From: Novisyntrophococcus fermenticellae
GTDB lineage: Bacteria > Bacillota > Clostridia > Lachnospirales > Lachnospiraceae
Assembly (NCBI RefSeq): GCF_018866245.1
Contig: NZ_CP076458.1
Span: 2,232,001 to 2,296,000, forward strand
Length of the DNA: 64,000 nucleotides
Reading direction: 5' to 3'
Within the stretch, counting starts at the first letter, position 1, and every line of letters begins with the position of its first letter. The position numbers and the translations under genes were made by a program. Under the pieces are notes generated by a model. That model did no database searches, was not told the origin of the DNA, and saw only the letters and a program-made list of their open reading frames with translations. Positions 5,114 through 27,434 of this stretch are shown here, piece after piece.

Positions 5114-6796
5114 CTACATATCTGCTCGTTGTAGCAACACAATAGTCTCAACGTGTGTATTGTCGTCCAAACTTAAATCCATATCATGTTCAATGATTGG
5201 GAGCTTGAATTTGATGGATTTTAGCCATTGTCCGTTTGGCTGACGTTCTTCATATACTTGAATTTCAGAGATGAGTTTCTCTATCAGTTGCCGTTTCTCT
5301 GTTTCGTTCATATTGGCGTACAACTTATCAAAATAAATTAAAATCTTATAGATGTTGTCGCCTGTGATCTTTTCTGATTCAATGGCTCTCTTTTTCGCTT
5401 TAGCGTCGATAAGCCTCGATTCATGTTCCTCAATCTTATCATATATTTTGTATAAACGCTCATTAAAATCAGTTTTTATTCTGGAATAATGTTTGTTTTC
5501 AACGTCCAGCGAATCAATTTCATCTATCAGCTTTCCTTTTGTTGAGTAGCACTGGCGTATCTGCTTTTCATAGTTTGCAATCTCTTGCTCAACAGCAGTA
5601 GTATCCACTTGCATATCTATCTTGCAACGCATTAAATCTGCGAACTTGGGATTGCTGACGAGCTTTACAATGACTTCAGCTACGGCGTCGTCCAGAAGTT
5701 CTTCACGAATTTGCTTATTAAAATCACATTTATGCCCACGGTTCATTTTGCGGTGCTTGCAGCCATAATAATAAAAATCCTTGTATTTTGTCCCGTCTTT
5801 TTTATATTTAATACTCTTGTTGGCAAACATACCAACACCACAGATGGGACATTTTACAATACCGGAGAGAAGATGTATCCGCTCATCTTTTGATTTATTG
5901 ACATGCTCATATTTATTCGCCTGTGAAATAAGTTTAACCTGCGCTGCTTTCCAGTCGTTTTCTGAGATGATTGGCTCATGCACACCATCTACAAGAAGAT
6001 AATCGTCCTGCTCCACCAAATGGTACTCATTTCTTGTTCCGTGTACCTTTTCAGTTTTTCTGCGCCCATATGCAATTTTTCCAAAATAAACCGGATTTTT
6101 AAGTATCTTGCGAATTAATGAGGCATCAAACAGAGGGTTTTTCCCATTTTGCCTTGGGATTTTTTTAATGCCGTGATTTTCAAGATATTTTGACAAGCCG
6201 TTAGCACCGGTATCAGTTTTGATGTATTGTTCAAAAATTACACGTATGGCGATGGCTTCTTCTTCGTTGATTTCTAATTTTCCATCAGTGAGTTTATATC
6301 CGTAAGGCGCAAACCCACCGTTCCATTTACCTTCACGAGCTTTTTGAATGCGCCCTTCCATTGTCTGTATGCGTATATTCTCACGTTCAATTTCGGCGAC
6401 AGCAGATAGCACCGATATAATCAATTTACCTGCGTCCTTTGAGGAATCAATTCCATCTTCCACACAAATTAGGTTTACACCATAATCTTGCATAATTTGC
6501 AAGGTAGAAAGCACATCAGCCGCATTTCGCCCAAATCTGGATAATTTAAAGACAAGAACAAATGAAACACCATCTTTCCCCATTTTAATGTCTTCAATCA
6601 TTTGCCCAAATTCTAATCTGCCTTCTATTGATTTACCAGATTTGCCTGCATCTTCATATTCATGAACAATTTCATATCCATTGAAATCAGCAAATGCTTT
6701 CATTCTCGCTTTTTGAGCATCCAAAGAGAAACCGTCAATCTGCATTGCGGTGGATACTCTTGTATATGTATATACTTTAACTTTTTCGGCTTTCAT
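5114..6796 (-). CDS. Large serine recombinase (element integrase)
   Basis: Site-specific recombinase of the resolvase/invertase superfamily. N-terminal catalytic domain with Ser15 in YTRVSTAMQIDGFSLDAQ and arginines in KLSRFGRNAAD; then the recombinase domain (GGFAPYGYKL … LIRKILKNPVYFG), a zinc ribbon (CPICGVGM … C-X5-RGHKC) and a long coiled coil that usually controls integration versus excision. ATG 6796 is preferred to the upstream GTG at 6808. The last nine residues (IVLLQRADM) look like the tail of RlmD rather than of a recombinase: the gene crosses the attachment core at 5145. In the circular form it should gain the ~100-residue tail now on RlmD. It lies at the element's end, as expected for an integrase. 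Confidence 0.92.
   Translation of the reverse strand: MKAEKVKVYTYTRVSTAMQIDGFSLDAQKARMKAFADFNGYEIVHEYEDAGKSGKSIEGRLEFGQMIEDIKMGKDGVSFVLVFKLSRFGRNAADVLSTLQIMQDYGVNLICVEDGIDSSKDAGKLIISVLSAVAEIERENIRIQTMEGRIQKAREGKWNGGFAPYGYKLTDGKLEINEEEAIAIRVIFEQYIKTDTGANGLSKYLENHGIKKIPRQNGKNPLFDASLIRKILKNPVYFGKIAYGRRKTEKVHGTRNEYHLVEQDDYLLVDGVHEPIISENDWKAAQVKLISQANKYEHVNKSKDERIHLLSGIVKCPICGVGMFANKSIKYKKDGTKYKDFYYYGCKHRKMNRGHKCDFNKQIREELLDDAVAEVIVKLVSNPKFADLMRCKIDMQVDTTAVEQEIANYEKQIRQCYSTKGKLIDEIDSLDVENKHYSRIKTDFNERLYKIYDKIEEHESRLIDAKAKKRAIESEKITGDNIYKILIYFDKLYANMNETEKRQLIEKLISEIQVYEERQPNGQWLKSIKFKLPIIEHDMDLSLDDNTHVETIVLLQRADM
5145..5155. other. Left attachment core (attL-like)
   Basis: GTCTC-A-ACGTG, encoding on the minus strand the HVET of the recombinase end. 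It matches the copy at 26098-26108 in 10 of 11 positions. Sequence below 5145 (IVLLQRADM then stop at 5114) reads as the displaced natural C-terminus of RlmD. Confidence 0.7.
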
Positions 6797-6825
6797 ATTG
6801 GTCACCACTCGGCATTTTATTTTTT

Positions 6826-6864
6826 AAACTACACCTCAAGACTTAATATCTCGAGGTGTAGTTT
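6826..6864. repeat. 12-bp inverted repeat upstream of recombinase
   Basis: AAACTACACCTC (6826-6837) pairs perfectly with GAGGTGTAGTTT (6853-6864) over a 15-nt loop, 30 bp before the recombinase start. There is no T-run after it in the direction of the recombinase, so it could be an attenuating 5'-UTR hairpin or an operator controlling the integrase, or a weak terminator for the ParB transcript. Confidence 0.55.
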
Positions 6865-6889
6865 GGACTATTAGTTCACGATTATTATA

Positions 6890-7123
6890 TCACGCCTTTT
6901 CTTTTGTTGCAATACTGTTATTTGAAATCTTACTCGTCGTTGCATTTTTTTCAGTACTTATCTTGTTAATATCAGGATCCGGCATTGAATCTATCTCTAA
7001 AACATCTGAATATTTAGCAATCATGTTAGATAAAAATTCTGCTAACGCTCCCCATTCATCAATATTATTCAAAATGTGCCTCCAATTAAAAAACGCCCGA
7101 TAATCTGCAATCATGCAAATCAT
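6890..7123 (-). CDS. Small accessory protein downstream of ParB
   Basis: 77-residue protein with no family that I recognise. The N-terminal half (YRAFFNWRHILNNIDEWGALAEFLSNMIAKYSDVL) looks helical, and the C-terminal third is Ser/Thr/Asn/Lys-rich and probably disordered. The start overlaps the end of the parB-like gene by 4 bp (ATGA), so translation is coupled and it belongs to the mobilization operon. It could be a partition accessory or antitoxin-like protein, but nothing in the sequence decides this. Confidence 0.55.
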   Translation of the reverse strand: MICMIADYRAFFNWRHILNNIDEWGALAEFLSNMIAKYSDVLEIDSMPDPDINKISTEKNATTSKISNNSIATKEKA

Positions 7124-7986
7124 CGAGCGTTGTTTCGTTCCTTGTTTCGTTTTCGGTCTTCTAAAAGTTTTAGAATTGCTTTTTCTATCTGTTGAGGAGT
7201 ATAGTTATTTGGAAAGTATTGCTTTAGTCGTTCATATGGGAACTTGATTTGCTCTTTCTGATTGGCTTTTTCGGCAGTAAGAATACCGAAAATTGCATCC
7301 ATATCGAGCAACCCATTTTGTGATAACTTTTTCATTTGTTGAGCCTGTGAAAGCGACGGTGTACATTGCTCTGACTCAATAGTTTCTAATAAAGCGGTTT
7401 GTTCTTCTTTGGCGAGAAAAGAAAGCTCAACCGCCGGAGTTAAAGCAATTTTGCTGTCATCAACATATTGCAAAATTTCCGGGATAAGGTTGGTCAAGCG
7501 GATATAGCGGAATACTTGGTCACGGCTTTCGTTAGACTGCTTGCCAATTTCAGCAGCGGTGTCGAGCTTTGTCGCAACTTGCGACAAAGCTAAATCTGTC
7601 CGCTCGCCTTGCCGATTAAGAGCCTCCATTTTGAGCTTATAAGCGTTAGCCTTTTCAGATGGCAAAATGTGTTCTCTATGCAGATTTGAATCCACAAGTG
7701 CAATAACAGCCGCATTTCTATCCAAGGCATAAATTAAGGCAGGAATTTCGTTAATTCCTACCTTTTGTGCTGCGTGTAATCTCCGATGACCGGAGATTAC
7801 TTCATATTCATTTGTTTTGTTTTCAATCGGTCGGGCGATGATGGGATTCAAAATTCCATGTTCTTGAATACTGTCGGTCAGCATATTCATCTCGTCATTA
7901 TCCAGCACCTTATACGGATTTTCCTCAAACGGATGCAATTTTTCAATCGGAATATTTACCGATGATATGGTTTTTTCATTTTTCAT
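7120..7986 (-). CDS. ParB/Spo0J-like nuclease-domain protein
   Basis: Soluble DNA-binding partition-type protein of 288 residues. The N-terminal ParB/Srx fold is clear: IPIEKLHPFEENPYK, SIQEHGILNPIIARP and the nucleotide-binding box EVISGHRRLHAAQKVG, then the ALVDSNLHREHILPSEKA stretch and a helix-turn-helix region around QVFRYIRLTNLIPEIL. The ATG at 7986 is chosen because AGAGGTAG precedes it at good distance; a start at 8025 would lie inside the relaxase gene. No ParA accompanies it, as is common for ParB-like genes of Clostridia mobile elements. The likely role is maintenance or regulation of the element. Confidence 0.85.
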   Translation of the reverse strand: MKNEKTISSVNIPIEKLHPFEENPYKVLDNDEMNMLTDSIQEHGILNPIIARPIENKTNEYEVISGHRRLHAAQKVGINEIPALIYALDRNAAVIALVDSNLHREHILPSEKANAYKLKMEALNRQGERTDLALSQVATKLDTAAEIGKQSNESRDQVFRYIRLTNLIPEILQYVDDSKIALTPAVELSFLAKEEQTALLETIESEQCTPSLSQAQQMKKLSQNGLLDMDAIFGILTAEKANQKEQIKFPYERLKQYFPNNYTPQQIEKAILKLLEDRKRNKERNNAR

Positions 7987-7990
7987 AATG

Positions 7991-9379
7991 TTATCTACCT
8001 CTTTGTCTTTCTTTTTGTAGGGCATCTTTTTCCATTTGATGCTCGGTTTTTAATAAATTTTGTAATTTGGGATAACGCTCGGTAATGCTTTCTGCGATGC
8101 GGAGTTTGTCACGCAACGGTTTAATTTTTTTGGATATATCCATACATTTTTGTTTTAGCTCCATTTCTATTTCCGGCGAATGGCAACGGCGAATTTGATT
8201 ACGATACTGCTGCCGCTGTGCTTCCAGCGTTTTTATCTGCCCCGAAATACCACCCACAAATGAAAAAAGCTCCTCAGCCGAATGAATTTCATTTACGGCG
8301 AGGAGCGTATATTCCTTTTGTATCTGATGAAGCTTGGTGACTTCCATACGGATTGACGGCGATAGCGGTTGACTGCGCTGCTCCGGCGGCGATTCTTTAG
8401 CAAGCAATATCAATTGTAAGATGATATAAAAGATAACGTCAACCAAAACTACAACACCATCTTTTGAATGGTCAATTTCCCAGCTTAGCCGCTTCTCCAA
8501 TTCAAGTAACGGAAACTGTTTTGGTTTATATGGCGCTTTGTAAGTGTGAATATTAAAGAAATACTTGTCTTCACGATTTTTATCAAAGCGAGAATTGATT
8601 ACAGCTTTTGTATATCCAAGACTGTCCAAGCGAATCGACTTTTTCCAATCAGGCGCTTTAACAGAAAGATGTTGATACTTGTCATCACCACGGATAAACT
8701 GATAACCAAGTGCTTTCAAGCGAATTTGAAAATCTTGCGAATTACGAGAAAACTTCAAAACCGATTCTATATCCCGTTTCAAAATATCCCTGTGCGTCAT
8801 GCCGCCGTTTTTGTGAATCCAATAAGCGCCTTTTTCGCCGCCGTAGAACGGCGCATCTTTCAAAACAGATTTGCCATGTTCTATACAAACAGCGTCGGAA
8901 ATTTCACGTAAACGGTAATGGTCGGATATATGATTCTCAAACTTCCGTCCGGTTTTGAAAGAAACGGAGTTCACGACCATGTGATTGTGAAGCTTGTTTG
9001 TGTTCAAATGTGTTGTAACGATTATTTCATACTCATCGCCCCACATTTTTCTTGCTGTTTCCATGCCGATAGCATGTGCCTCTGCCGGAGTAACTTCTCC
9101 TTCTCTAAAAGATTGAAAACCATGATATGCAACATTAGTTCCTCGGTTGCCATACCGCTTTTTCGTTGCCATCATTCGCTCATATGCTTGTTTGGTGTTA
9201 CAGTTAATACCACTTACAAACATTTGCTTATCGGTTTTGTCATCGTTTTCAACATAACGCAGTGCTTTAAACAAATCATCATCAAGGAATTTTTTTGCAG
9301 TGGTTTTGTCCGGATTGCGGGCATATTCTATAACATCTTTCAGGCTGCCTTTAACAGGCCAAAACCCAGTGGTTGCCAC
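7991..9379 (-). CDS. Relaxase, MOBP-like (MobA/VirD2 family)
   Basis: Nicks oriT and pilots the strand during conjugative transfer. The N-terminal relaxase domain carries the metal-binding histidine triad H124-X6-H131-N-H133 (in THLNTNKLHNHMVVNS), a candidate nucleophilic Tyr in IEYARNPDKT (Tyr19), and the VSGINC and YHGFQSF segments typical of Firmicutes relaxases. The C-terminal half is basic and helical with no recognisable primase or helicase. It starts with GTG immediately after the MobC stop (TAAGTG), with AGAGGCG as ribosome site. At 462 residues it is a normal size for a mobilizable element without its own secretion system. Confidence 0.93.
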   Translation of the reverse strand: MATTGFWPVKGSLKDVIEYARNPDKTTAKKFLDDDLFKALRYVENDDKTDKQMFVSGINCNTKQAYERMMATKKRYGNRGTNVAYHGFQSFREGEVTPAEAHAIGMETARKMWGDEYEIIVTTHLNTNKLHNHMVVNSVSFKTGRKFENHISDHYRLREISDAVCIEHGKSVLKDAPFYGGEKGAYWIHKNGGMTHRDILKRDIESVLKFSRNSQDFQIRLKALGYQFIRGDDKYQHLSVKAPDWKKSIRLDSLGYTKAVINSRFDKNREDKYFFNIHTYKAPYKPKQFPLLELEKRLSWEIDHSKDGVVVLVDVIFYIILQLILLAKESPPEQRSQPLSPSIRMEVTKLHQIQKEYTLLAVNEIHSAEELFSFVGGISGQIKTLEAQRQQYRNQIRRCHSPEIEMELKQKCMDISKKIKPLRDKLRIAESITERYPKLQNLLKTEHQMEKDALQKERQRGR

Positions 9380-9667
9380 TTATTTCGCCTCTTTTCTCGG
9401 CAGAATAAATTCTGTGGTGATTTCATCTAATAGTTCAAGAAGTTTGTTTTCCGTTTCTTCTGAAAAATTGGAATCACAGAGCACATCCAGTTTACCGATA
9501 AATTTATAGAAATCCTCCGGCAAGACCGCTTTCGGCTCATATTTAAATGCACGTTGGCGAAGATACTCAGAAACCGACAACCCGGATTTGTTTGCTATTG
9601 CTTCAATACGCTTTTTCTCTTTATCGCTTACACGAATATAAAGATTGTTATTTTTAATTTCATTCAT
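9380..9667 (-). CDS. mobC: MobC-like relaxosome accessory protein
   Basis: 95-residue ribbon-helix-helix protein: a beta strand (NNLYIRVSDKEKKRIEAIANKSG) followed by LSVSEYLRQRAF, the pattern of MobC/plasmid mobilization proteins that bind oriT and help the relaxase. The start at ATG 9667 has GAAAGGAAC at the right distance; an upstream ATG at 9685 lies within the ribosome site region and is less likely. It abuts the relaxase gene. The hairpin cluster directly upstream (9697-9766) is the expected place for its binding site. Confidence 0.85.
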   Translation of the reverse strand: MNEIKNNNLYIRVSDKEKKRIEAIANKSGLSVSEYLRQRAFKYEPKAVLPEDFYKFIGKLDVLCDSNFSEETENKLLELLDEITTEFILPRKEAK

Positions 9668-9689
9668 AGAAATAGTTCCTTTCATTTCA

Positions 9690-9800
9690 AAGGGGTTTTA
9701 GGGTTCACCCTAAAGAAAAGCGGCTATTCAAGCCGCTTGAAATTGGAATCTGTACTTACAGATTCCCTGCTTGTTACGGTATAAGACAGTGCTAAGTCCG
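9690..9800. other. Candidate origin of transfer (oriT)
   Basis: Three closely spaced dyads lie directly upstream of mobC: TTTAGGGT/ACCCTAAA (9697-9714), AAGCGGCT/AGCCGCTT (9718-9738) and GGAATCTGT/ACAGATTCC (9745-9766). MOBP oriTs typically have an inverted repeat bound by the accessory protein, with the nick a few bases beyond its arm, and they usually lie next to mobC-relaxase. The nick site cannot be placed from sequence alone. The first two hairpins could instead act in mRNA. Confidence 0.5.
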
Positions 9801-9876
9801 TATATTCATCGTGCTTTTCGTATCCTTTTTTGGGTTGCATAACTTGTCCCTTCTTTCATAAATAGTGATGCCACAA

Positions 9877-9917
9877 TAATGCCACAAGTGTAATTGGCTA
9901 TCCAAAATGTGGCATTA
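9877..9917. terminator. Nested hairpin after ParR-like gene
   Basis: TAATGCCACA (9877-9886) pairs with TGTGGCATTA (9908-9917), and a second stem TTGG/CCAA sits inside. ATGCCACAA is also directly repeated just before (9868-9876). It lies 12 bp past the ParR-like stop on the minus strand, so it probably ends or attenuates the parMR transcript. Direct plus inverted copies of the same word could equally be a ParR-binding (parC) or transfer-related site. Confidence 0.45.
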
Positions 9918-9928
9918 CTTTGATGCCA

Positions 9929-10219
9929 TCAGCCGCCAAGAAACTCATCAAGCGTATCCAGCAAATTGTTTTCGTCTTCTGAAAGGGTATCCGGCTTTTT
10001 GTCTGTTTTGGTTTGCATAACAGCGACATTTTGAAAGCATTCCTTGATAGTCTGCCGAACAACATCAGCAATAGGGGTAGCATCCGGTTCGAAAAAGGTA
10101 TTGATAGCAGAAATAACAGCGCTATTTTTAGAACCTTCCGCACCTTGTAAATACTCCCAAGCCTTGCGGTCAACATCATTCTCCAAATTAAAACGAACGC
10201 TGATTCGTTTGGGTTTCAT
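9929..10219 (-). CDS. ParR-like ribbon-helix-helix adaptor
   Basis: 96-residue protein whose first half (RISVRFNLENDVDRKAWEYLQ … SKNSAVISAINTFF) is a ribbon-helix-helix DNA-binding module, and whose acidic C-terminus (LLDTLDEFLGG) resembles the tail by which ParR-type adaptors cap ParM filaments. It overlaps the end of the actin-like gene by 4 bp. Together they form a type II (ParM/ParR) segregation pair, which suggests that the excised element persists as a circle. Family identity rests on architecture and gene pairing. Confidence 0.75.
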   Translation of the reverse strand: MKPKRISVRFNLENDVDRKAWEYLQGAEGSKNSAVISAINTFFEPDATPIADVVRQTIKECFQNVAVMQTKTDKKPDTLSEDENNLLDTLDEFLGG

Positions 10220-11142
10220 ACACTCCCACCACTACGAATAAGCTTCATTTCAAGCATCCGCTCATACCCTTTGGCAGTAGCGCAAATATCGTCATTGATT
10301 ACGACCCGACTTTTATCGTAACTGCCAAAATTTTTGATAAGGCAACCGCCGCCACCGACAACATATAATCGCATCAATTTTGGATCGTATTCATTTTCAC
10401 GGAGCCTGCGGAAAATGTCGCTGACATATTCTGTCGCCGTGCTGGTAATGATTTTGAGATAGCTTTCATCAATATCCGCAGTGCCAAATCGGAGAACACG
10501 AGTGATGACCGAATCATCCACTGCAGCGTGATGAACACGCATAACATTTTCCCGAATAGCAAGTAAACATTGATTCGTGCCGAACTTTTCGGTAAAACAT
10601 CTTTTTGAATCAGGCTTTTTATCGTTTACATACATGACATTCATCGTGCCGTTACCGATGTCGCAGAGCATATTTACGCCGTTAAATTCATCGAGATTAT
10701 TGATAATAGCGGCAAATCCCTGCGGATAAACATCAGCTCCCACAATGCGAATGTGATATTCCTTACCTTTAAACGTAAAATCTGCCGTTTCAAATTGAAG
10801 AAGATACTTTTTGAACTCTTCTTTTTGCTCACTAACCCAAGTCAGCGGTAGTCCTGCGGCAATGAACACATCAGCGCAGTAGGTTTTGCAGATATTAAGC
10901 TCTCTTGCGATCGCCGCAAGGGTAAGGACATAATAGTCTGAGTCCAGCATTTTATCGGCGGCAAACTCTTTGTGTTCCTCACCGATAAGGTAATACTTAT
11001 CGTTCCAGATAAGCAGATTTTCCTTAAAAGTCGGTTCCTTGTCGTAAACGGTGACACCTGTTTTGAAACAGCAGTTTGCCGTTTTGATGTTGCCGTAGCC
11101 GTGATCGATGCCGATGATAATGCGGTTGTTATAGTTTTTCAT
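10216..11142 (-). CDS. ParM-like actin-family segregation ATPase
   Basis: 308-residue actin-fold ATPase. Phosphate-1 motif IIGIDHGYGNIKTA at the N-terminus, phosphate-2 NMLCDIGNGTMNVMYV near the middle, and adenosine motif LYVVGGGGCLIKNFG near the C-terminus. This is the StbA/ParM/Alp class that polymerises to push plasmid copies apart, rather than cellular MreB or FtsA. The ParR-like gene follows with overlap. Found on low-copy plasmids and on elements with a replicating circular phase; its presence here supports a plasmid-like stage. Confidence 0.9.
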   Translation of the reverse strand: MKNYNNRIIIGIDHGYGNIKTANCCFKTGVTVYDKEPTFKENLLIWNDKYYLIGEEHKEFAADKMLDSDYYVLTLAAIARELNICKTYCADVFIAAGLPLTWVSEQKEEFKKYLLQFETADFTFKGKEYHIRIVGADVYPQGFAAIINNLDEFNGVNMLCDIGNGTMNVMYVNDKKPDSKRCFTEKFGTNQCLLAIRENVMRVHHAAVDDSVITRVLRFGTADIDESYLKIITSTATEYVSDIFRRLRENEYDPKLMRLYVVGGGGCLIKNFGSYDKSRVVINDDICATAKGYERMLEMKLIRSGGSV

Positions 11143-11395
11143 AGTCGTTTCCTTTCTGCTGCATTGTAGCGGTTAAATTTTGGTTTTTACAGATTTCACC
11201 GTACATTTCTTTTTCGGCTGGTAGAACGGCACTGAGAAAATAGTTGCAATAAATTCCGTGGATACTGATGAGCTGCACGCACTTATGACTTTCACCATCA
11301 TCGAGGAGCAAGCAGTCACCGTGATAAAAGTTACAACACGCTTTCCTGACCAACCTATGAATCCGTTTTGCCTGTGCCGGGGTCGTTTTTAACAC
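11129..11395 (-). CDS. Cysteine-rich VLP-domain protein
   Basis: 88-residue protein with the pattern of the cysteine-rich VLP family: RIHRLVRKACCNFYHGDCLLLDDGE…C, then YFLSAVLPAEKEMYGEIC. The four or so conserved Cys probably bind a metal. The family occurs almost only on Firmicutes conjugative and mobilizable elements, next to ParM or relaxase genes; its function is unknown. It overlaps the start of the ParM-like gene by 14 bp and so belongs to the same operon. Confidence 0.8.
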   Translation of the reverse strand: MLKTTPAQAKRIHRLVRKACCNFYHGDCLLLDDGESHKCVQLISIHGIYCNYFLSAVLPAEKEMYGEICKNQNLTATMQQKGNDYEKL

Positions 11396-11423
11396 ATTGT
11401 TTCGCTTCCTTTCAACATAAATT

Positions 11424-11455
11424 TACTGCTCCGACACAAAAGTGTGGGAGCAGTA
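11424..11455. repeat. 32-nt hairpin repeat, copy 1
   Basis: TACTGCTCC-G-ACAC, AAAA loop, GTGT-GG-GAGCAGTA, followed on the plus strand by TATTTTAATAC. It is 31/32 identical to copy 2 at 12636-12667. The tetraloop and T-rich tail fit an intrinsic terminator, and it lies in the leader of the minus-strand cysVLP-parM operon. Confidence 0.75.
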
Positions 11456-11543
11456 TTTTAATACAATTTATTTATGTTTTTGTGCTGATTACCGGCTAAA
11501 AAAGAAAAAGGACTGCCACGCTCGGCAATCCTCTTTCGGCTAG

Positions 11544-11861: not shown

Positions 11862-11867
11862 AACTTT

Positions 11868-12176: not shown

Positions 12177-12243
12177 TATTTTTCTTCCTTTCAACAATTT
12201 ACACAACCCATCTTGAAAGAAAGTCCGGCGCATGGTATAATAT

Positions 12244-12500: not shown

Positions 12501-12511
12501 TTCCTCACCTC

Positions 12512-15700: not shown

Positions 15701-15788
15701 ACAATGCGCCATTGCATTGGGTAAACGGAAATTTGCGTTTGAAGTTTTACTGGATAGAATTGAGCAAAATGCCATAAAGGGACGGTGA
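12726..15788 (+). CDS. Single-chain RNA-polymerase-like protein (YonO/QDE-1 type)
   Basis: 1,020-residue cytosolic protein. Residues 582-586 read DFDGD within GGADFDGDMIKT, nearly the same as the bacterial beta-prime catalytic signature NADFDGDQM, whose three Asp hold the catalytic Mg. About 50 residues before it, YTLLRNPHIARNEEAIVSAP parallels the beta-prime segment LLNRAPTLHRLG and the RNPC.HPGD box of eukaryotic RdRPs. GRLNIAGDNRYLSGD lies ~70 residues further upstream. This is the double-psi beta-barrel arrangement of one-subunit polymerases such as SP-beta YonO and QDE-1. The start is TTG with AGGTG before it, reading LKYKIYELSARAIMRY. It has its own promoter and overlaps the next gene. 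Template and product are unknown; it could transcribe the element or prime its replication. Confidence 0.75.
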   Translation: MKYKIYELSARAIMRYAVEASSGIYTYNLSEDATNRCISFSAPTMQDDCALFFQIMCVLHGDDFKMPVGVDIIPDLSDILITVDFSGIFDRQAVQKKYIDRQIQAESMFRPDGITLDFGKGAYKYLAFERSASMSRNSRLSFIREDFYEHVRRRIMLGMQIGMCQLSKLYAYNGLMLTSGFRISNMDIWDEKRIVIVDNPITPVYEAKYITVEDDGSDNPMRKYHRVEKKDDVEVIEFDGEGLVSREFAEKMDIEFCGKHIHNSFQIRMPYIKGVVHEVDFKSLFAELGVPYIVDIWGVKHQVQDVVLILTKSMFKGFGWMTENGLSWTEYLDRCKKYHHSLYISGVNQVESQEYTELNYQFLNTVPMTAEEFRPLDLTLGWKHSPEEDKRHWITKDTEIAYWKLAADPTSRKEYFLNALNAQNADKRSILLAKILQKNPLFINESIYANELDNKAKSLLKQYAIGRLNIAGDNRYLSGDLMRFILMLVKSVADVDDEYMGVMIRLQNECYRETVAYAPGAVYPQSESYTLLRNPHIARNEEAIVSAPDYIGLLRQKYLSHLNYVIMVDSRTLIPERLGGADFDGDMIKTIADPLLNACVTRNYKENDFDTYSHQSSIPLLKIPSANALACDANDWQARFETIKSTFSTRIGQICNAAFDRSIIAYDENSSAEDRERLQRETEMLEILTGLEIDSVKSGIKPDLTEFLNQKTVSRSSFLKYKSLVGEDDSREWYEPTKNKKLKRFFDSIDWDIVTSNVERLPYLAKMLEENTPKIKAKPAEDAELFVFARKSGWKELLDSSAMEYMQTLIADYEEALNRIRRNWHIGDIKMIRRNDIERILYARGQENDFTTDELYAVFSLCDARRINDLRKLLTEEQWHLMLPEGREQFLDLFLPYDTPQQYYDFFSDFRFGGYRILGDIICDLDDMFTAEELKKNRLHRKGDSAFLKYLIEGYEHMRSVDYIEAVSKKCRTYINGIKTKNKASMDLDTALQCAIALGKRKFAFEVLLDRIEQNAIKGR

Positions 15789-15793
15789 TTGTT

Positions 15794-16645
15794 ATGCTAA
15801 ATGAAATAGAAGAATTTGCCGCCTACACAGGTGTTGTAGATTACACCGCCAAAAATAAATATGACAGCACCTATCTCGGCAGATTTACGTTTGATACGCT
15901 CCTTAAATTCGAGGGATTATCTCGCATACTGACGATTATCGCACGGGGATACATGTTCAAAAACGGCACTGAGCCGCAGATTGACTATGCTCGGAGTGTG
16001 CTTCAGGCATGGTGCAGTATTCCTGACAGTAAAAAAGCCAGCCCCAAAGAGGACTGGCAATACAAAACGGATTTTAGGAATTTACATGATGATTTTCCGG
16101 AGCTTGTTGATGTAAACGGCTGCGGTTGGTATTATCGGCACATTCAAAACTTGATTAATTTTATACAGAATAACCCTGATAAAGTCATGAAAACAGCGCT
16201 AAACAACTGTGAGGGTATGAAGAAAGGCTTTGACGGTGAATGGCGTAAAAAGGTATTACAGTTTCAAATACCGCTATTCGCTGAAAAAACTAAAGGCGCA
16301 TGGATATTGCGTTTTGATGATATCCTTGCTGATGCTCTGGAACCTGGCAAGCTTAGAAACACAGAAATCACTTTTACAGCGGAAGAATGGCGACAGGTTG
16401 AAACTGCCACGCCGGAAAAAGTGCCAACAGAAGTGTTATCTACGCTTATAGCTTATTATCGTGCCAATAAACCCGATGATTCCGATTGGGTGGTTCTGCC
16501 AGTTGCCAACTTCGATGCTTATTTCGGCAACACCAGTTTCAGTCGCAAATGGCTGAACCAAATGCTGCCGGAGATCATTGAACGCCAAACAAGTTTTGGT
16601 GTATGCAGGTATAAGGTAAATGGGATATGGCTAACCGGAACCTAA
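15794..16645 (+). CDS. Unknown partner of the RNA-polymerase-like protein
   Basis: 283 residues from ATG 15794, which has AAAGGGA 11 bp before it; an in-frame GTG at 15785 overlaps the polymerase stop but sits too close to the ribosome site. Either way translation is coupled. No known domain is recognised. The C-terminal 90 residues (VPTEVLSTLIAYYRANKPDDSDWVVLPVANFDAYFG … WLNQMLPEIIERQTSFG) look like a winged-helix or small alpha/beta module; the N-terminal part is helical with several Trp/Tyr clusters. Strict coupling to the polymerase-like gene suggests a specificity or processivity subunit, or a replication initiator. This is inference from arrangement only. Confidence 0.6.
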   Translation: MLNEIEEFAAYTGVVDYTAKNKYDSTYLGRFTFDTLLKFEGLSRILTIIARGYMFKNGTEPQIDYARSVLQAWCSIPDSKKASPKEDWQYKTDFRNLHDDFPELVDVNGCGWYYRHIQNLINFIQNNPDKVMKTALNNCEGMKKGFDGEWRKKVLQFQIPLFAEKTKGAWILRFDDILADALEPGKLRNTEITFTAEEWRQVETATPEKVPTEVLSTLIAYYRANKPDDSDWVVLPVANFDAYFGNTSFSRKWLNQMLPEIIERQTSFGVCRYKVNGIWLTGT

Positions 16646-16696: not shown

Positions 16697-17464
16697 TTAT
16701 ATAACATCTTTAATACTACTCACAAATTGCTTCACTGGCTCAATACTTTCTCTGCCATATTCCGCAACCAGCTTAACAATTGCACTCCCAATGATAACTC
16801 CATCCGATAACGATGCCATATCCCGGGCTTGCTCCGGAGTCGATATTCCAAATCCAATGGCACAAGGAACAGATGAAACTTTTCTTGCCTGCGAGATCAT
16901 ATCGATGATATTTCCGCTGATTTCACTACGCACTCCGGTGACGCCAAGCGAAGATACACAGTAAAGAAACCCCTCGGCGTTTTTCGCGATCTTTTTAATT
17001 CGTTCCTGCGATGTCGGTGCGATCATAGAAATTTGATAAATTCCGTGTTTTGTACAATCATCCTCTAATTCATCTTTTTCTTCAAACGGCAGATCAGGGA
17101 CAATGATACCGTCAATCTCGCAGTCGGCGCACTTTTCGATAAACCGTTCCTTACCATAAACGAATATAGGGTTTATGTATGTCATAAACAATAGCGGAAT
17201 ATCCACTTTTGTTCTGACTCTTTTTATCATCTGAAACAATTTATCAACCGTGCAGCCGTTTGCGAGTGCCCGTTCATCGGCTTGCTGAATAACAATGCCT
17301 TCAGCAACAGGATCGGAAAATGGAATGCCGATCTCAATAATATCTACGCCCGATTCAGCCATTGCGACTATCAGTTTTTCCGTTGTTTCAATATCAGGAT
17401 CGCCGCCTGTGATAAACGCTATGAATGTCTTTTTATTTTCGATTGCCTTAGAAATTCTATTCAT
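16697..17464 (-). CDS. trpA: Tryptophan synthase alpha chain
   Basis: Cleaves indole-3-glycerol phosphate to indole and glyceraldehyde 3-phosphate, channelling indole to TrpB. A 255-residue TIM barrel; family marks are FITGGDPD near the N-terminus, the catalytic Glu/Asp pair in [16 protein letters not shown], and [14 protein letters not shown] followed by GFGIS, which bind the phosphate. The start overlaps the end of trpB by 8 bp. It is the last gene of the operon and converges on the RNA-polymerase partner gene, with only 51 bp and no clear terminator between. Confidence 0.97.
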
Positions 17465-18659
17465 GAATACTCACCCCTTTGTATCGTGCGATAGAAGCGA
17501 CATCCTTGTCGCCTCTGCCGGACAGGTTTACAACAATTATCTGATCTTTTTGCATGGCTGGCGCGATTTTTTTTGTATAAGCCAGCGCATGGGCGCTTTC
17601 TACCGCTGGAATAATCCCTTCGGTACGCGACAGATATTCAAACGCTTCCACCGCTTCCTCGTCCGTAACCGGCACATATTCAGCCCGTTTGATATCGGAG
17701 AGATGCGCGTGTTCCGGACCGATACCCGGATAGTCAAGACCGGCCGAAATAGAATACACAGGCGCTATTTGTCCGTATTCATCCTGACAAAAATAAGATT
17801 TCATGCCATGAAAAATACCGATTGTCCCATTTGCCATTGTCGCGGCATTCTTGGGATTATCCACACCCAACCCTGCGGCTTCGCAGCCTATGAGCCTGAC
17901 AGACGGATCATCAATAAATTCATAAAACGCGCCTATCGCATTACTGCCGCCGCCTACGCAGGCAACCACAGCGTCGGGCAATTTATTTTCGGCTCCAAGT
18001 ATTTGCTCCTTAATCTCTTTACTTATAACTTTTTGGAAATCGCGTACCATCATAGGAAACGGGTGCGGTCCCATAACTGAACCAAGTACATAATGCGTAT
18101 CGTCTATCCGCGATGTCCATTCACGCATGGTTTCATTTACAGCGTCTTTAAGCGTCATTGTTCCGCTGGTTACAGCGTGAACCTTCGCGCCAAGCAGTTC
18201 CATTCTAAATACGTTCAACGCTTGCCGTTCAGTATCCTCTTTACCCATAAAAATTTCACATTCGAGTCCTAACAACGTCGCCGCAGTGGCAGTCGCAACG
18301 CCATGCTGTCCTGCACCGGTTTCGGCAATAACACGGGTCTTGCCCATTTTTTTCGCAAGCAAAACCTGCCCTAAAACATTGTTAATTTTGTGGGAACCGG
18401 TATGGTTTAAATCCTCTCGCTTCAGGTAAATCTTTGCTCCGCCTAAATCCTTAGTCATTTTATCAGCGAAATATAAAAGCGATGGTCGTCCGGCATAATT
18501 ATGGAGTAAACCGGTAAGTTCTTTTTGAAAATCCGGGTCATCTTTATAATGCAGATATGCCTTTTCAAGTTCTCCCACAGCATTCATCAATGTTTCGGGA
18601 ATATACTGACCGCCGTAATTTCCGAATCTACCTTTTTTTATACGCTCTTGCATTCCCAT
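17457..18659 (-). CDS. trpB: Tryptophan synthase beta chain
   Basis: PLP enzyme that joins indole and serine to give tryptophan. 400 residues, classic TrpB1 type: [15 protein letters not shown] at the N-terminus, the PLP lysine K91 in [10 protein letters not shown], the EAGAGQHG-equivalent [13 protein letters not shown], the phosphate-binding [10 protein letters not shown], and a C-terminal SGRGDKD. It starts inside the end of trpF (22-bp overlap) and overlaps trpA. All active-site residues I can check are present, so the enzyme should work. Confidence 0.98.
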
Positions 18660-19252
18660 TCTCTCACTCTCTTTATAAACTCTTTAATCTTTTCGGGATC
18701 TTTGAATCCGTCTGTTTCAACGCCGCTGCTGACATCTACGGCAAACGGATTTGTTTCTTCGATAGCTTTCTTTATATTCTCTAAATTCATCCCGCCCGCT
18801 AAAAAGAACGGCTTATCCGTTTTGCCGATTAAATTCCAGTTAAAACTTAAACCTGCACCGCCGCCTTTATTATCAAGCAGCAAATAATCCGCTGAGGTTG
18901 CTGCCCATTTTTGAACATCACCTTCATTTTGAACAGCTATCGCTTTGATGATTGGCTTTTTTATCAGCACCTTTAATTTTTCTATATATTTTTCATTTTC
19001 AGAGCCGTGAAGCTGAACAGCATCTATTATCCCATTTTGCATCAAAGAAACGATATTCTCTGCCTTTTCATCTACAAAAACTCCAACAGGTATTATATCC
19101 GGCTCGAGCATTTTTCGCAACTCCAACGCTTGCTGTGGTGTGACTTTCCGGCGGCTCTCGGCGAACACAAAGCCTATATATTCCGGTTTTACCTCATTTA
19201 CAGCTTCAATATCACAAGGACGGGAAAGTCCGCAAATTTTAACCTTAACCAT
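18638..19252 (-). CDS. trpF: Phosphoribosylanthranilate isomerase
   Basis: Amadori rearrangement of phosphoribosylanthranilate to CdRP. A 204-residue TIM barrel starting [14 protein letters not shown], with the catalytic Cys in KICG and Asp in the GVFVDE strand, AVQLHGSE in the middle and [21 protein letters not shown] near the end. ATG 19252 is chosen because GGGGTGAT lies just before it and earlier candidate codons fall in the ribosome site. It overlaps trpB and follows trpC closely. A separate gene, not a TrpCF fusion. Confidence 0.96.
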
Positions 19253-20033
19253 ACACATCACCCCGCAGACGAATTATTTCCGCTTTTTTATCATTGCTCC
19301 GCATAATTGTCTCTCCAATCAAAGCGGCATCCGCGCCTATTTTTCGCAACGCTGCAACATCTTCGGGTGACTTTATACCGCTTTCAGAAACAAACAGTTT
19401 ATCATGTGGAATCATTTTTCTGAGCCGTTCACTTAAAGTTATATCAACCTCAAAAGTTTTAAGGTTTCTATTATTAACACCTATGATTCTCGCACCGGCA
19501 TTGAGCGCCATTAGAATTTCTTCTTCGCTGTGTGTTTCCACGAGCGCGGAAAGTCCAAGACTGTGAGCAATGTCAATATACTCGGCGAGAGTATCTTTGT
19601 CCAGTATGGAACAAATGAGCAAGACAGCACTTGCGCCGAGAACCTTCGCTTCGTAAATCATGTAGCTGTCAACAGTAAAATCCTTGCGCAGCAATGGGAT
19701 GGAAACTATATCGGCGATTTCGCGAAGATAACTGCCGTTGCCCTTGAAATAATACGGTTCAGTTAGTACCGAAATTGCAGATGCGCCTGCCGCTTCATAT
19801 TCTTTGGCGATGTCCAGGTAGGGAAAATCCTCCGCTATAATGCCTTTTGACGGCGACGCTTTTTTTATTTCACATATAAAAGCCATATCTTTAGATTTTA
19901 ATGCTTCTTCAAAGAGAAAACCACCGCAACTGGCAGAGCGTGCAAGCTCTATGACTTCTTCAAACGGTTGCAGTTTCTTTTGTTCAGCGATTCTCTCTTT
20001 TGTACGAATTGCGATTTCCTGTAAAATACTCAT
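19245..20033 (-). CDS. trpC: Indole-3-glycerol phosphate synthase
   Basis: Closes the pyrrole ring of CdRP to indole-3-glycerol phosphate with loss of CO2 and water. 262-residue barrel with the substrate-binding [16 protein letters not shown] (two catalytic Lys), [30 protein letters not shown] (third catalytic Lys), [14 protein letters not shown] and [11 protein letters not shown]. It overlaps trpD by 4 bp and trpF by 8 bp. Full length for the family, with no missing residue noticed. Confidence 0.97.
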
Positions 20034-21070: not shown

Positions 21071-21720
21071 TATTTATTTTTTTTGATTAAACTCGCGAAT
21101 GTATAAAACAGCGTCTCATGTTTGATTGCAGTGACGTCAAATTTAAGCATTTTAAAAACAATTTGAATGCATAATCCTCCTGCGACCGCCGCGATTATTG
21201 TTCCGGCTCCGACCATACCGCCCAACAACCAACCGACAACCGTTACGGTTATATCAACAATGCTGCGGCAAATTCCAATGGGCATTCCTGTCTTTTTGGT
21301 AAGAACAACCATCAAATTATCTCTCGGTCCGGTTCCAAAAGCCGATTTCATGTAAAAATACGATCCTATTGCGATAATAAATAATCCCGCAACAATCATT
21401 ATTACGCCGAGTGGCAGATTTAGAGCTATAGGTATAATTCCACTTTCTAAGATAATATCAAGGAAAATGCCAATTACTATAACATTTAAAACGGTTCCAA
21501 GTCCTATCTTTTCGCCCGCGAACGTGACTATAATAACGATTATCATCCCTACGAATATTGATACGATTCCGATTGTTGATCCGAATTTATCCGCAAGCCC
21601 GATATGGAAAACATCCCACGGAGCATAACCGATATGGGCTTGCACCGTGAGCGCGATACCAAGAGCGTACAGGAAAAGTCCAATCATGACGTTTATTAAA
21701 CGTATTAAAAATTGTTTCAA
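21070..21720 (-). CDS. YczE/YitT-like membrane protein inside trp operon
   Basis: 216-residue membrane protein with about five or six hydrophobic helices and the stretches [25 protein letters not shown] and [17 protein letters not shown], typical of the YczE/YyaS group (YitT superfamily, DUF6198-like). It overlaps trpG at its start and touches trpD at its end, so it is a full member of the operon. YczE-like proteins have no agreed substrate. A role in export or import of an aromatic compound or pathway intermediate is suggested only by this position. It is absent from trp operons that I know. Confidence 0.8.
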
Positions 21721-22289
21721 ATGTTACCTCTTATAAAATTTCTGATAATAATTTCCCCTTTGGGAGTAAGTATGGATTCAGGATGGAATTGCAAGCCGTA
21801 TATCGGATATTTTTTGTGGCACACCGCCATTATTTCATTGTCTTTAGTCCAAGCAATGATTTTAAGCTCTTCGGACAAGGTGTCTTTTACGCCTGCTAAT
21901 GAATGGTAACGCGCTGCTATTATAGTTGTCTCCATCCCTTTAAACAAAGAATTGCTTGTATCAACCACTACCTCCGACGACTTCCCGTGCATAAGTTTTG
22001 CAGCATACGACACTGTACCGCCAAAGGCTTCATATATCGCCTGATGTCCAAGACAAATTCCTAAAATCGGTATATCGGTATATAATTGCCTTACGGCATC
22101 AATACATATTCCCGCATTTGACGGTTTGCCGGGACCGGGGGAGATCACAATACGATCAGGAGCAATTTTCCGTATTTCATCAATACTCACCTCATCGTTC
22201 CGTACGATTCTAATGTCGGAATCCACCGACCCGATAAGCTGATATAAATTGTATGAGAAACTGTCGTAATTATCAATCAAGAGTACCAT
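21717..22289 (-). CDS. trpG: Anthranilate synthase glutaminase subunit
   Basis: Class I glutamine amidotransferase supplying ammonia to TrpE. 190 residues, starting LLIDNYDSFSYNLYQLIG, with the nucleophile Cys in ILGICLGHQAIYEAFGG and the His-Glu pair in GLQFHPESILTPKG. VISPGPGKP forms the oxyanion region. The ATG overlaps the trpE stop (ATGA). It could serve PabB as well, as in some Gram-positives, but the operon context favours tryptophan. Confidence 0.97.
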   Translation of the reverse strand: MVLLIDNYDSFSYNLYQLIGSVDSDIRIVRNDEVSIDEIRKIAPDRIVISPGPGKPSNAGICIDAVRQLYTDIPILGICLGHQAIYEAFGGTVSYAAKLMHGKSSEVVVDTSNSLFKGMETTIIAARYHSLAGVKDTLSEELKIIAWTKDNEIMAVCHKKYPIYGLQFHPESILTPKGEIIIRNFIRGNI

Positions 22290-24810: not shown

Positions 24811-25102
24811 AATAAAAAAGTCCTTGGTAAAGTAAAATACTTTACCAAGGACGAATAAACTTATCCGCGGTGCCACCTTGATTTACGAAAAAATCGTACA
24901 ACTTTGTAGGATACTAACATATCCCTCGCAACTGACGTATGCGTCACGTCATGGAATACTCAGCGCGAAAAGCGCCTTTGACCATGCCCTCAGCGGTCCA
25001 TTTAACAGCTTGCATTCTATTCGGTTCTCAGCACCCCGAACTCTCTGTACAGCGCATATGCTGTTTTTATCTCCACTTCAACGGTTTCGAAATATTAAAT
25101 TT
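24811..25102 (-). promoter_or_regulatory. Tryptophan T-box leader
   Basis: tRNA-sensing riboswitch in the leader of aroF-trp. AAGGTGGCACCGCGG at 24879-24865 is the conserved T-box; its UGGC is complementary to GCCA, the acceptor end expected of tRNA-Trp with discriminator G. Stem I contains AGAGAG and a GGGG-loop-CCGA distal arm, and the specifier region AAATGGACC places UGG (Trp) at 25000-24998. The intrinsic terminator is a perfect 15-bp stem (24852-24838 with 24834-24820) followed by TTTTTTATT. Uncharged tRNA-Trp should favour the antiterminator and switch the operon on. Confidence 0.93.
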
Positions 25103-25108
25103 TCTTAT

Positions 25109-25137
25109 ATTATACGCCGATTAGTTGAATATGTCAA
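25109..25137 (-). promoter_or_regulatory. Consensus sigma-A promoter of trp operon
   Basis: TTGACA (25137-25132), exactly 17 nt, TATAAT (25114-25109): a full match to the consensus. It drives the T-box leader, so output is probably set by the riboswitch rather than by initiation. It lies inside the mobile element, so the operon carries its own promoter wherever the element goes. Confidence 0.88.
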
Positions 25138-25199: not shown

Positions 25200-25574
25200 T
25201 TAATCATAAATCAATTCGTTTCTAATAATTTCATCGGCACAATTTCGAATATTGTTGACTTTGCCAACCCAAGCCATCATATCATCAGCTTTAAGCTGTT
25301 CAGTAATGCCTTGCGATTTCATCATCTGTTCAATTAACAATTCCCGCCGTTCAAAAGCAGCAATATCAATCTCATGCAAATGCTCCGACAACTTACAGGA
25401 TGTCAGAAGATTTGTGTAAAGAACACGTTTGTGTTTTTTCAGATAGTCAAGCCGCCGTTGTCCCCAAATTCCAATAGTGTATTCCGGCTCATCTGGTAAA
25501 GTCAGATTTGGAATTTGGTAATCTCCGACCATGCGATATGCACCACCTTGTTGTTCAAATAAAGATTTTTCCAT
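25200..25574 (-). CDS. tnpV: TnpV-like transposon protein
   Basis: 124-residue protein of the TnpV family, known from Tn4451-type elements with large serine recombinases; role unresolved. Recognised by GIWGQRRLDYLKKHKRVLYTNLLTSCKLSEHLHEIDIAA and the closing LKADDMMAWVGKVNNIRNCADEIIRNELIYD. ATG 25574 follows GAAAGGGGCG. It lies at the right end of the element, just inside the displaced recombinase tail, and is transcribed toward the trp leader. Full length for the family. Confidence 0.88.
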   Translation of the reverse strand: MEKSLFEQQGGAYRMVGDYQIPNLTLPDEPEYTIGIWGQRRLDYLKKHKRVLYTNLLTSCKLSEHLHEIDIAAFERRELLIEQMMKSQGITEQLKADDMMAWVGKVNNIRNCADEIIRNELIYD

Positions 25575-25664
25575 AATAAACGCCCCTTTCAAAATTTATA
25601 GTTTTATTCTAATCAAATTATTTTTCCAATGCAAATGTGCAATATAATTTTCTTAATATAATTA

Positions 25665-25680: not shown

Positions 25681-25725
25681 ACAAAAACTTAAAAAAAAGG
25701 AGTTTACTTAACCAATAATATGAAA

Positions 25726-25756
25726 AAAGCTCTCAACCATATTGATTGAGGGCTTT
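25726..25756. terminator. Terminator after the RlmD/recombinase tail
   Basis: AAAGCTCTCAA (25726-25736) pairs with TTGAGGGCTTT (25746-25756), with a T-run on the minus strand. In the present state it ends the rlmD transcript. In the circular element it would lie behind the extended recombinase. Confidence 0.7.
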
Positions 25757-25796
25757 ATTTGCATCTGCTATGATAGGTATTACTTATACTTTAAAC

Positions 25797-27434
25797 TCAG
25801 ATCATTTCAAAATGTTTCAACGCAGTTGTAATAGCTGTTTCTTTCTCAGCAGGGCATTCTGGAACTCTTGCATTATCGGATTTTGGCAAATTATAGCACA
25901 CGCCCACTACAAGACCGAGTTTACGTTTGACTTGCGAAATATATAAAGAAGAAACCTTTAGTCCTGTTGTTTTCAAGATATAATCCTTAATTTCTTCATA
26001 GGTTGCCTTACTTTCTGAACTGGTCAAATCAAGCTCATCGAGCTTCAAATCTACTTCAATATGATGCTCCGTATTAAGTTTGGACAATAAGCATACCGTC
26101 TCCACGTGCACCGTCTGCCCAAACTGATCTACCCCCCGCACCTTCTTCAACTCATACCCCCTATCACAAAGATATCTCAAATCCCGTGCCAATGTGGCCG
26201 AATCACAGCTAACATACACGATCCTCTCCGGCTGCATCCGGATCATGGTATCCAAAACGCTTTCCTCGCAGCCCTTCCTCGGCGGATCGACCACGATTAC
26301 ATCGGCGTGTATCCGTTCTTTCTCATACTTCTCCGGCAGCACGTCCTCCGCCCTGCCTGCAAAGAATTCCGCATTCCGGATCTGATTCAGTTTCGCATTG
26401 CGTCTGGCATCTTCAATCGCCTGTGGAACGATCTCCACACCATAAACCATCTTCGCCTTTTGGGCCAGGAACAGCGATATCGTACCGATTCCGCAATACA
26501 GATCCCATACGACTTCATCCCCCTGCAAACCCGCATATGCAAGTGCTGTCTCATAGAGCACCTTCGTCTGTGCCGGATTTACCTGATAGAAGGACAGCGG
26601 GGATATCTGATACTTCACATCCCCGATATAATCCGTAATATAGGTCTGGCCCCAAAGTAAGGTAATCTTCTCTCCCATGATCACATTCGTGCGTTTCGTA
26701 TTGCTGTTCGTGGTTATGCTGGTCATCCCCGGTATCTCTTTCAGTGATTTTATGAGTTCCTCTCTCTTTGGAACCCTGTCTCCGTTGAGTACCAGGCAGA
26801 CCATAACCTCTTTCGTAGTAAATCCGTAGCGAATCAGGACATGACGAATAAGCCCCTTTCCGGACTCTTCCTCATAGGCTGGAATTCCATACTGCTCCAT
26901 CCAGCCCAGTACCCGGTTCAGAACCCGTTCATTCTCTTCCACGCCAAGATAGCATTTACGGGTGTTGATGATGCTGTGGGTTCTGCCGGCATAGAATCCG
27001 GTAACCGGCCTTCCATCCTTATCCACGCTAATTGGAAACTGTGCTTTATTCCGATAGTAGAATGGTTCTTTCATCCCCAGGATAGGCTCCATGGGAATCT
27101 CCTGAAAGCCGCCAATCCTCTTTAAATTATTCAGTATCTTATTTTCCTTAAATGCAAGCTGTTCTTCGTAAGACATCATCTGAAGCTGACATCCCCCGCA
27201 TTGCCGTGCAATCGGACACAGTGGTTCCACCCGATGAGGGGAAGGGGTGAGAAGCTTCATCAGCCGCGCATATCCGTAGTTCTTCTTCGCCTTGATAACC
27301 TTGACCTCTGCCTCGTCACCGATTACCGTGTCCTTCACAAACAGCGTATATCCGTTAACCTTTCCAATCCCTTCTCCATCGTGACCGATGTCTTCGATTT
27401 TAAGGGTAAGTACATCATTCTTCTTATAAATCAT
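25797..27434 (-). CDS. rlmD: 23S rRNA m5U methyltransferase with element-encoded tail
   Basis: Methylates a uridine of 23S rRNA. TRAM domain at residues ~5-60, iron-sulfur cysteines in PLCPIARQCGGCQ, SAM motif WDLYCGIGTISLFLA, and catalytic region VDPPRKGCEE with VSCDSATLARDL. Residues up to ~446 (HVET) are a normal RlmD. From base 26098 down the protein continues for ~100 residues (VCLLSKLNTEHHIEVDL … TTALKHFEMI) that belong to the inserted element and match the tail I recall from serine recombinases. The ORF is 545 aa, against the usual 430-460. Whether the tail harms activity is unknown. It follows yhaM by 18 bp. Confidence 0.9.
   Translation of the reverse strand: MIYKKNDVLTLKIEDIGHDGEGIGKVNGYTLFVKDTVIGDEAEVKVIKAKKNYGYARLMKLLTPSPHRVEPLCPIARQCGGCQLQMMSYEEQLAFKENKILNNLKRIGGFQEIPMEPILGMKEPFYYRNKAQFPISVDKDGRPVTGFYAGRTHSIINTRKCYLGVEENERVLNRVLGWMEQYGIPAYEEESGKGLIRHVLIRYGFTTKEVMVCLVLNGDRVPKREELIKSLKEIPGMTSITTNSNTKRTNVIMGEKITLLWGQTYITDYIGDVKYQISPLSFYQVNPAQTKVLYETALAYAGLQGDEVVWDLYCGIGTISLFLAQKAKMVYGVEIVPQAIEDARRNAKLNQIRNAEFFAGRAEDVLPEKYEKERIHADVIVVDPPRKGCEESVLDTMIRMQPERIVYVSCDSATLARDLRYLCDRGYELKKVRGVDQFGQTVHVETVCLLSKLNTEHHIEVDLKLDELDLTSSESKATYEEIKDYILKTTGLKVSSLYISQVKRKLGLVVGVCYNLPKSDNARVPECPAEKETAITTALKHFEMI
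26098..26108. other. Right attachment core (attR-like)
   Basis: GTCTC-C-ACGTG, encoding HVET of RlmD on the minus strand, and the partner of 5145-5155. Bases above it are chromosomal rlmD; bases below it are element DNA encoding the recombinase-type tail. Confidence 0.7.

Follow-up and report, generated by a model that had tools for sequence, protein, structure and literature searches.

A probable mobilizable element in the rlmD gene of Novisyntrophococcus fermenticellae carries a tryptophan operon and a YonO-like polymerase

Elements that insert into rumA (rlmD) have been described in streptococci, where attachment (att) sites lie inside both the integrase gene and the methylase gene and insertion reciprocally exchanges the 3' ends of the two (PMC4701971, in excerpt). 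Integrative mobilizable elements (IMEs) at this site, including IME_SpnAP200_rumA, are also listed in a review of IMEs (PMC5704250, in excerpt). Here we describe a segment of about 20.95 kb at rlmD of Novisyntrophococcus fermenticellae, found in a 64,000-nucleotide stretch of contig NZ_CP076458.1 (hereafter the window, to which coordinates refer unless another sequence is named). We think it very probable that this segment is an IME, carrying a foreign, self-contained Trp module and a YonO-like polymerase. It shares with the streptococcal rumA IMEs and integrative conjugative elements (ICEs) the same target gene, att sites inside both genes and exchanged 3' ends (PMC4701971, in excerpt), but it differs from them in host family and in having a trp operon and a YonO-like polymerase as cargo. 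In streptococci the exchange shifts both proteins into another reading frame (PMC4701971, in excerpt), whereas here both read HVET in one frame. Its ParM/ParB segregation genes may be a further difference.

The machinery is known and the cargo is unusual. Plasmids of Buchnera carry trpEG only, and they make up 43 of the 650 plasmid records that match TrpE; there too trp genes are found off the main chromosome, whereas here aroF and seven trp genes sit on one predicted mobilizable unit. A first-pass annotation, made from the sequence of the window alone, had taken such an element to be undescribed. This stands for the cargo, as we found no description of a trp or other amino-acid operon on an IME among the papers listed in a literature search by title and start of abstract, with most subscription journals outside it, but not for the rlmD target and the tail exchange, which were already described (PMC4701971, in excerpt). 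The same annotation held that amino-acid biosynthesis operons are normally vertically inherited, which is too strong: lateral transfer of trp operons has been discussed, and in one gut Clostridiales species the whole trp operon has been reported from only some strains (PMC6349461, in excerpt, for both).

Ends of the element and its target gene

The segment is bounded by the only two matches to GTCTC-N-ACGTG in the 64 kb, GTCTCAACGTG at 5145-5155 on the recombinase side and GTCTCCACGTG at 26098-26108 on the rlmD side. By chance 0.05 matches are expected in the window, and two matches occurred in 0 of 100 shuffles. The left part common to both cores is GTCTC (GAGAC on the coding strand), and the core-to-core distance is 20,953 bp. 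The features at the two ends are as follows.

5114..6808, minus strand: large serine recombinase (integrase), 564 amino acids (aa); Pfam PF00239, PF07508 and PF13408 (Resolvase, Recombinase, Zn_ribbon_recom)
5145..5155, minus strand: recombinase-side att core, GAGAC; crossover predicted at GA (plus-strand TC, 5148-5149), from core match and dyad centre
25797..26097, minus strand: replacement tail from the element, read by the interrupted rlmD; from translation and homologous tails in relatives
25797..27434, minus strand: chromosomal rlmD fused to the element-borne tail; TIGR00479
26098..26108, minus strand: rlmD-side att core, GAGAC; crossover predicted at 26101-26102, from core match and dyad centre

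When the recombinase-end sequence (AAGTTTGGAC...GAGAC) and the rlmD-side end sequence (GAGAC...GTCCAAACTT) are joined at GAGAC, they form a single attP, a dyad in which 12 bases in a row pair and whose centre falls between the G and the A that open the core. The controls are negative: the longest paired runs are 5 in attL and 3 each in attR and the predicted empty site, and none of 20,000 random joins of window pieces reached 12. Three elements with the same two landmarks in other genomes, G087 (about 17.6 kb core to core), G208 (about 14.4 kb) and G167 (about 5.9 kb), have their dyads centred at the same point, with 11, 12 and 11 paired bases in a row, the recombinase-side core of G167 being GAAAG instead of GAGAC. 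Because the dyad sits at the same centre in the element and in these three relatives, the GA dinucleotide is likely the crossover point, and the unit measures 20,953 bp. A fourth candidate relative, G260, was dropped, as the rlmD-like gene on its contig lacks a matching tail.

Both genes are read through their cores. The rlmD frame crosses into the element-borne tail to give a translated product of 545 aa, and the recombinase gene crosses its own core into nine further codons, its last 9 residues lying beyond the core. With att sites within rlmD and within the integrase gene, and with 3' ends exchanged, the segment belongs with the rumA/rlmD serine-integrase elements. The first-pass annotation had read the two cores as the ends of one rlmD element, which the pair of sole matches and their shared dyad bear out, and had proposed looking at rlmD in relatives for empty sites and for other occupants. 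In a genome of the same genus (G003) rlmD is uninterrupted and contains the GAGAC core, its last residues coming after GAGAC, and the same recombinase family lies at rlmD-type genes in elements without trp.

In another genome of the genus (G002; L040, C15) the rlmD match reaches almost to the end of its contig, which breaks off only a few bases away, near the att core; this is possibly another insertion there.

The tryptophan operon, its redundancy and its ancestry

The element's operon runs aroF-trpE-trpG-yczE-trpD-trpC-trpF-trpB-trpA, with aroF and all trp genes open, and is preceded by its own promoter and leader.

16697..17464, minus strand: trpA; TIGR00262
17457..18659, minus strand: trpB; TIGR00263, over cut-off
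18638..19261, minus strand: trpF; NF002300, 195 bits, under the 212-bit cut-off
19245..20033, minus strand: trpC; NF001377
20030..21070, minus strand: trpD; TIGR01245
21070..21720, minus strand: YczE-like membrane protein gene, within the operon between trpG and trpD; NF052291, 158 bits, below the 205-bit cut-off
21717..22289, minus strand: trpG; TIGR00566, PF00117
22289..23794, minus strand: trpE; TIGR00564
23775..24848 (open reading frame, ORF, as listed), minus strand: aroF, 3-deoxy-D-arabino-heptulosonate 7-phosphate synthase; NF006421, TIGR01361
24820..24852, minus strand: terminator at the end of the leader, 15-bp stem and T run
24844..25090, minus strand: T-box leader with UGG (Trp) specifier; RF00230, 85.3 bits, E 6.6e-19
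25109..25137, minus strand: sigma-70 promoter TTGACA-17-TATAAT, 12/12

Leader, UGG specifier and terminator stand before the trp genes, as expected of a Trp T-box operon. The E-value of the leader comes from a 901-base search, and its 85.3 bits are below the Rfam gathering score of 93; it is therefore not listed in the whole-window scan. The real aroF start is probably nearer 24.79 kb, judged by eye. As the first-pass annotation had described it, then, the cluster is a full aroF-trpEG-trpDCFBA set with its own consensus promoter and Trp T-box. One guess at the role of the YczE-like protein is transport of an indole compound.

The host has a second copy of the pathway. In its single-contig genome of 3.42 Mb two trpB genes score over the cut-off, one in the element and the other in an intact chromosomal trpEGDCFBA operon (L004) at about 600-607 kb, which encodes proteins 48-80% identical to those of the element and has a T-box of its own (74.8 bits, UGG specifier). 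The two operons share the same trp genes and the same type of leader, but that of the element adds aroF and yczE and sits on a mobile unit, and its TrpE is of other descent. Among the other five genomes of the genus, each of the three with a completeness of at least 90% has a single over-cut-off trpB, and the remaining two (58% and 79% complete) have none. The first-pass annotation had suggested that the element could convert a tryptophan auxotroph to a prototroph. Because this host has a second intact operon, also preceded by a T-box, no auxotroph need have been rescued here, and we reject rescue for this host, but such conversion is possible for other recipients. At E 1e-120, trpB was matched in 251 of 329 genomes of the family (206 of 269 good ones); since the other 78 (63 of the good ones) gave no match, Trp-auxotrophic recipients look plentiful in the family. 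Second trpB copies occur in 18 other family genomes, 16 of them lower-scoring (511-564 bits). The two with two high-scoring copies, G190 and G198, have no element recombinase or mobilization gene on the contigs fetched.

The two TrpE proteins of the host differ in ancestry. A TrpE pattern scan of a species-genome collection, in which the best 80 of 398 loci were kept with at most 10 kb on each side, gave a metagenome-assembled genome (MAG), UBA5396, as best match at 100%, the next being 78%. A TrpE tree of 86 rows, from which the UBA5396 protein was omitted as it is split by a run of N, places the element in an 18-row clade (Shimodaira-Hasegawa-like approximate likelihood ratio test, SH-aLRT, 99) apart from the chromosomal TrpE, which pairs with Fusicatenibacter (SH-aLRT 99). 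The clade comprises 7 Bacillota, 4 Fibrobacterota, 4 Spirochaetota and 3 ungrouped rows, the element among the last, and eight of its rows bear the host prefixes Nc, Th, Cu or Co, which stand for termite species (PMC7886697, in excerpt). A TrpD tree of 67 rows groups the element with UBA5396, a Fibrimonadaceae MAG and G139 (support 100), and the chromosomal TrpD lies outside this clade. Because these are quick trees without bootstrap, with rows from binned contigs, some only 4-7 kb, the cross-phylum spread of the trp lineage that they suggest is provisional.

Seven other rows of the TrpE clade, L054, L055, L058, L062, L063, L069 and L092, are probably insect-gut MAGs. The trpE loci of L052, L054-L065, L069 and L092, from termite-gut and similar MAGs labelled with three phyla, fall in one clade; they are mostly trpEG, several with aroF added, and several contigs are cut near trpE. 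In the DNA available for these loci trpDCFBA was not found, except for trpD-trpC in L063. Ten ORFs from termite-gut TrpE loci (eight from L054, L057, L059 and L063, and a single one from either of L191 and L192) gave no match to mobile-element families, and where tested the loci therefore look chromosomal. A recombinase match was present at only two of the 80 TrpE loci, L095 and L127, where it was weak (27% identity over about half) and 6-7 kb from trpE.

Relatives, mobilization genes and a proposed mechanism

In a search with the element's DNA, which scored 323 of 397 family genomes with one candidate each, the recombinase region was found in at least 12 family genomes, and the recombinase is 69-79% identical to copies followed by rlmD-like tails in other genomes. 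A comparison of the same recombinase with and without trp, another check proposed at the outset, gave no trp gene in the DNA fetched from 12 other recombinase-bearing family genomes, three delimited at both ends and nine partly covered; for this reason trp looks like a rare cargo on a common type of element. Counting the host, 17 of 329 genomes have a relaxase match with an E-value of 1e-60 or better. The closest backbones, G256 and G017, have ParM, ParR-like, MobC, relaxase and ParB genes in the same order as here, with TnpV on the far side of the cargo; of the two, only G017 has the Cys-rich VLP protein seen in the trp element. Unlike the element, they carry no trp in their cargo and use a different serine recombinase, which makes the combination of modules a mosaic. 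In five cargo ORFs scanned from each, G256 (L206 646-8503) has NERD nuclease and STAND/kinase genes, and G017 has a tyrosine integrase and ORFs without clear match. Because the same slot in a related backbone holds defence-like genes, the trp operon suggests that nutritional independence is a possible cargo trait, like resistance or defence.

The other genes of the element, assigned by Pfam and NCBIfam profiles, are listed below.

6890..7123, minus strand: small ORF, 77 aa; no Pfam or PHROGs match, partial matches beside several recombinases of the family
7120..8025, minus strand: ParB-like protein; PF02195, PF17762
7991..9379, minus strand: MobA/VirD2-type relaxase; PF03432, with NF040665 and NF041893 below cut-off
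9380..9685, minus strand: NikA/MbpA-like (MobC) relaxase accessory protein; PF21983, with NF041418 below cut-off
9929..10219, minus strand: putative ParR, from position only, no Pfam or PHROGs family match; homologue beside ParM in G256 and G017
10216..11142, minus strand: ParM-like actin; PF17989, phrog_691 partition protein
11129..11395, minus strand: Cys-rich VLP protein; PF14194
12654..15788, plus strand: YonO-like single-chain RNA polymerase, 1044 aa, cargo; PF05183 (RdRP/YonO domain), DFDGD motif in sequence
15785..16645, plus strand: ORF of 286 aa (orf286) downstream of the polymerase, no assigned family; 3' half inside a block 99.94% identical in UBA5396
25200..25592, minus strand: TnpV; PF14198

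Of the genes named in the first-pass annotation, the serine recombinase, relaxase, MobC-like protein, ParM and TnpV are confirmed by family, and ParR is putative, from its place beside ParM; the ParB-like protein, the YonO-like polymerase with its partner ORF, the YczE-like gene, the second trp operon and the probable remnant on the left flank (see below) are additional to that list. The set is that of an IME: an integrase of its own, the large serine recombinase at one end; a PF03432 relaxase and a NikA-like protein without mating-pore genes in the main ORFs scanned; and ends that form one attP. Distant relatives of the YonO-like protein occur in SPbeta-type, Thomasclavelia and human faecal phage records, at 22-27% identity among the matches listed, and a PDB sequence search with it gave no match. 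We guess that this polymerase may transcribe element genes. PADLOC found no defence system in five element ORFs. Scans of IMG/VR with TrpE, the relaxase and the YonO-like protein gave no relative, and the recombinase matched six short contigs there, with no trp match on them.

Judging from the families present and from the relatives described, the serine integrase would insert the element at the GAGAC core near the 3' end of rlmD, swapping the last rlmD codons for the element-borne tail and the integrase tail for the flanking one, and the reverse reaction would release a circle with the dyad-symmetric attP rejoined. The relaxase and its accessory protein would permit transfer by a co-resident conjugative element, and ParM/ParB might keep the free form stable. 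The Trp module and the YonO-like polymerase occupy a cargo slot between TnpV and the mobilization genes. Given the leader, T-box attenuation would control the operon, which in this host would be a second, parallel Trp supply, turned on as charged tRNA-Trp becomes scarce. Where a recipient lacks trp, the operon could complete the pathway from chorismate, provided the host has shikimate genes, and aroF would add flux. With its integrase and relaxase genes, its defined target site and an operon that is intact and has its own leader, the element is a plausible carrier for lateral trp transfer and makes such events testable. A wider proposition, that it is a present-day vehicle bringing the complete, tRNA-sensing pathway in a single event to any rlmD-bearing gut bacterium, apparent auxotrophs included, and that such elements underlie the scatter of the trp lineage across Bacillota, Spirochaetota and Fibrobacterota in termite guts, seems to us rather unlikely.

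A near-identical copy and the competing explanations

Part of the element has a near-identical copy in UBA5396, a MAG from a different lineage, titled Ruminococcaceae bacterium. Contig DHOG01000054.1 (8,986 bp) agrees with the element at 8,645 of 8,650 aligned bases (5 differences, 99.94%), the match starting within orf286 (window 16,214) and reaching the T-box (24,882); two apparent insertions in the contig were dropped as real differences, the gaps being runs of N. Two stretches of the host chromosome, 39.8 kb together, have only five short weak matches in UBA5396. Since the block is near-identical yet the chromosome nearly unmatched, the copy reflects either a very recent transfer or a stray contig. 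It is quite possible that the match is binning contamination, and thus no evidence for recent spread, and the element a one-off in its lineage, an explanation that is compatible with an IME at rlmD and concerns this one line of evidence. Mis-binning is possible because the contig is short and the MAG has two other partial trp operons of one lineage (L195, L196), which suggests a mixed bin or a duplicated operon, and the drop to 78% at the next best TrpE among the 80 loci fits it as well. The near absence of host chromosome from UBA5396 speaks against contamination, as does a separate contig of the same MAG with a mosaic of relaxase, MobC and TnpV.

Several other points weigh against an active IME with a Trp cargo. 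UBA5396 has no close copy of the recombinase (best 29% identity, contigs of at least 3 kb covered), and the recombinases of the closest backbones, G256 and G017, are 25-26% identical to that of the element. TrpD separates the two copies in the host less than TrpE does, because the two share a 10-row set (support 90, not starred) without being sisters in it. The trp operon is redundant in this host, and its benefit is therefore not evident. The circle, excision, mobilization and transfer, like expression and any benefit, are what we infer from sequence, and no origin of transfer (oriT) was identified, no search aimed at one having been made.

The DNA to the left of the element belongs among these points too. 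Between 2297 and 5145 lie a terminase small subunit, a terminase large subunit in two adjacent ORFs, and DUF6994; the small-subunit ORF is continuous with element-end-like sequence left of 5145, and insertion sequence (IS) transposases are also present. By eye, this flank resembles what follows recombinases of this family in L181, L042 and plasmid pAPRE01 (L051); synteny with G003 picks up again about 15 kb further left. The flank is probably the remnant of a second element at the same rlmD site, and because it looks like mobile-element DNA the original rlmD tail is out of view. Such remnant-like DNA directly beside the segment, together with the lack of any circular form seen, speaks for a decayed or immobile island, an old integration now fixed whose trp genes were kept for their usefulness. 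We nevertheless find this improbable, as those element genes that were examined have open frames, no damage is seen in the promoter, T-box or att dyad, and the 99.94% block is present in a MAG without a similar chromosome in the 39.8 kb tested.

Two further explanations are highly improbable in our view. The trp operon might be ancestral chromosomal DNA between two unrelated att-like sequences, since short repeats alone can arise by chance and trp is usually chromosomal, but against it speak the end-to-end dyad and the matching arrangement of three relatives, the host's separate chromosomal operon, whose TrpE has another origin, and the single over-cut-off trpB in each of the three other genus genomes at least 90% complete. 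A self-transferring ICE, or part of one, would find precedent in the rumA-site ICEs described (PMC4701971, in excerpt) and in the same recombinase family on pAPRE01, a conjugative plasmid record, but we reject it, as the main ORFs scanned with Pfam contain no coupling protein, VirB4-like ATPase or other type IV secretion gene for a mating pore.

Region 6516-21686 of plasmid pAPRE01 itself contains two serine recombinases, and the rlmD-type replacement tail occurs in it twice, perhaps from stacked insertions on the plasmid.

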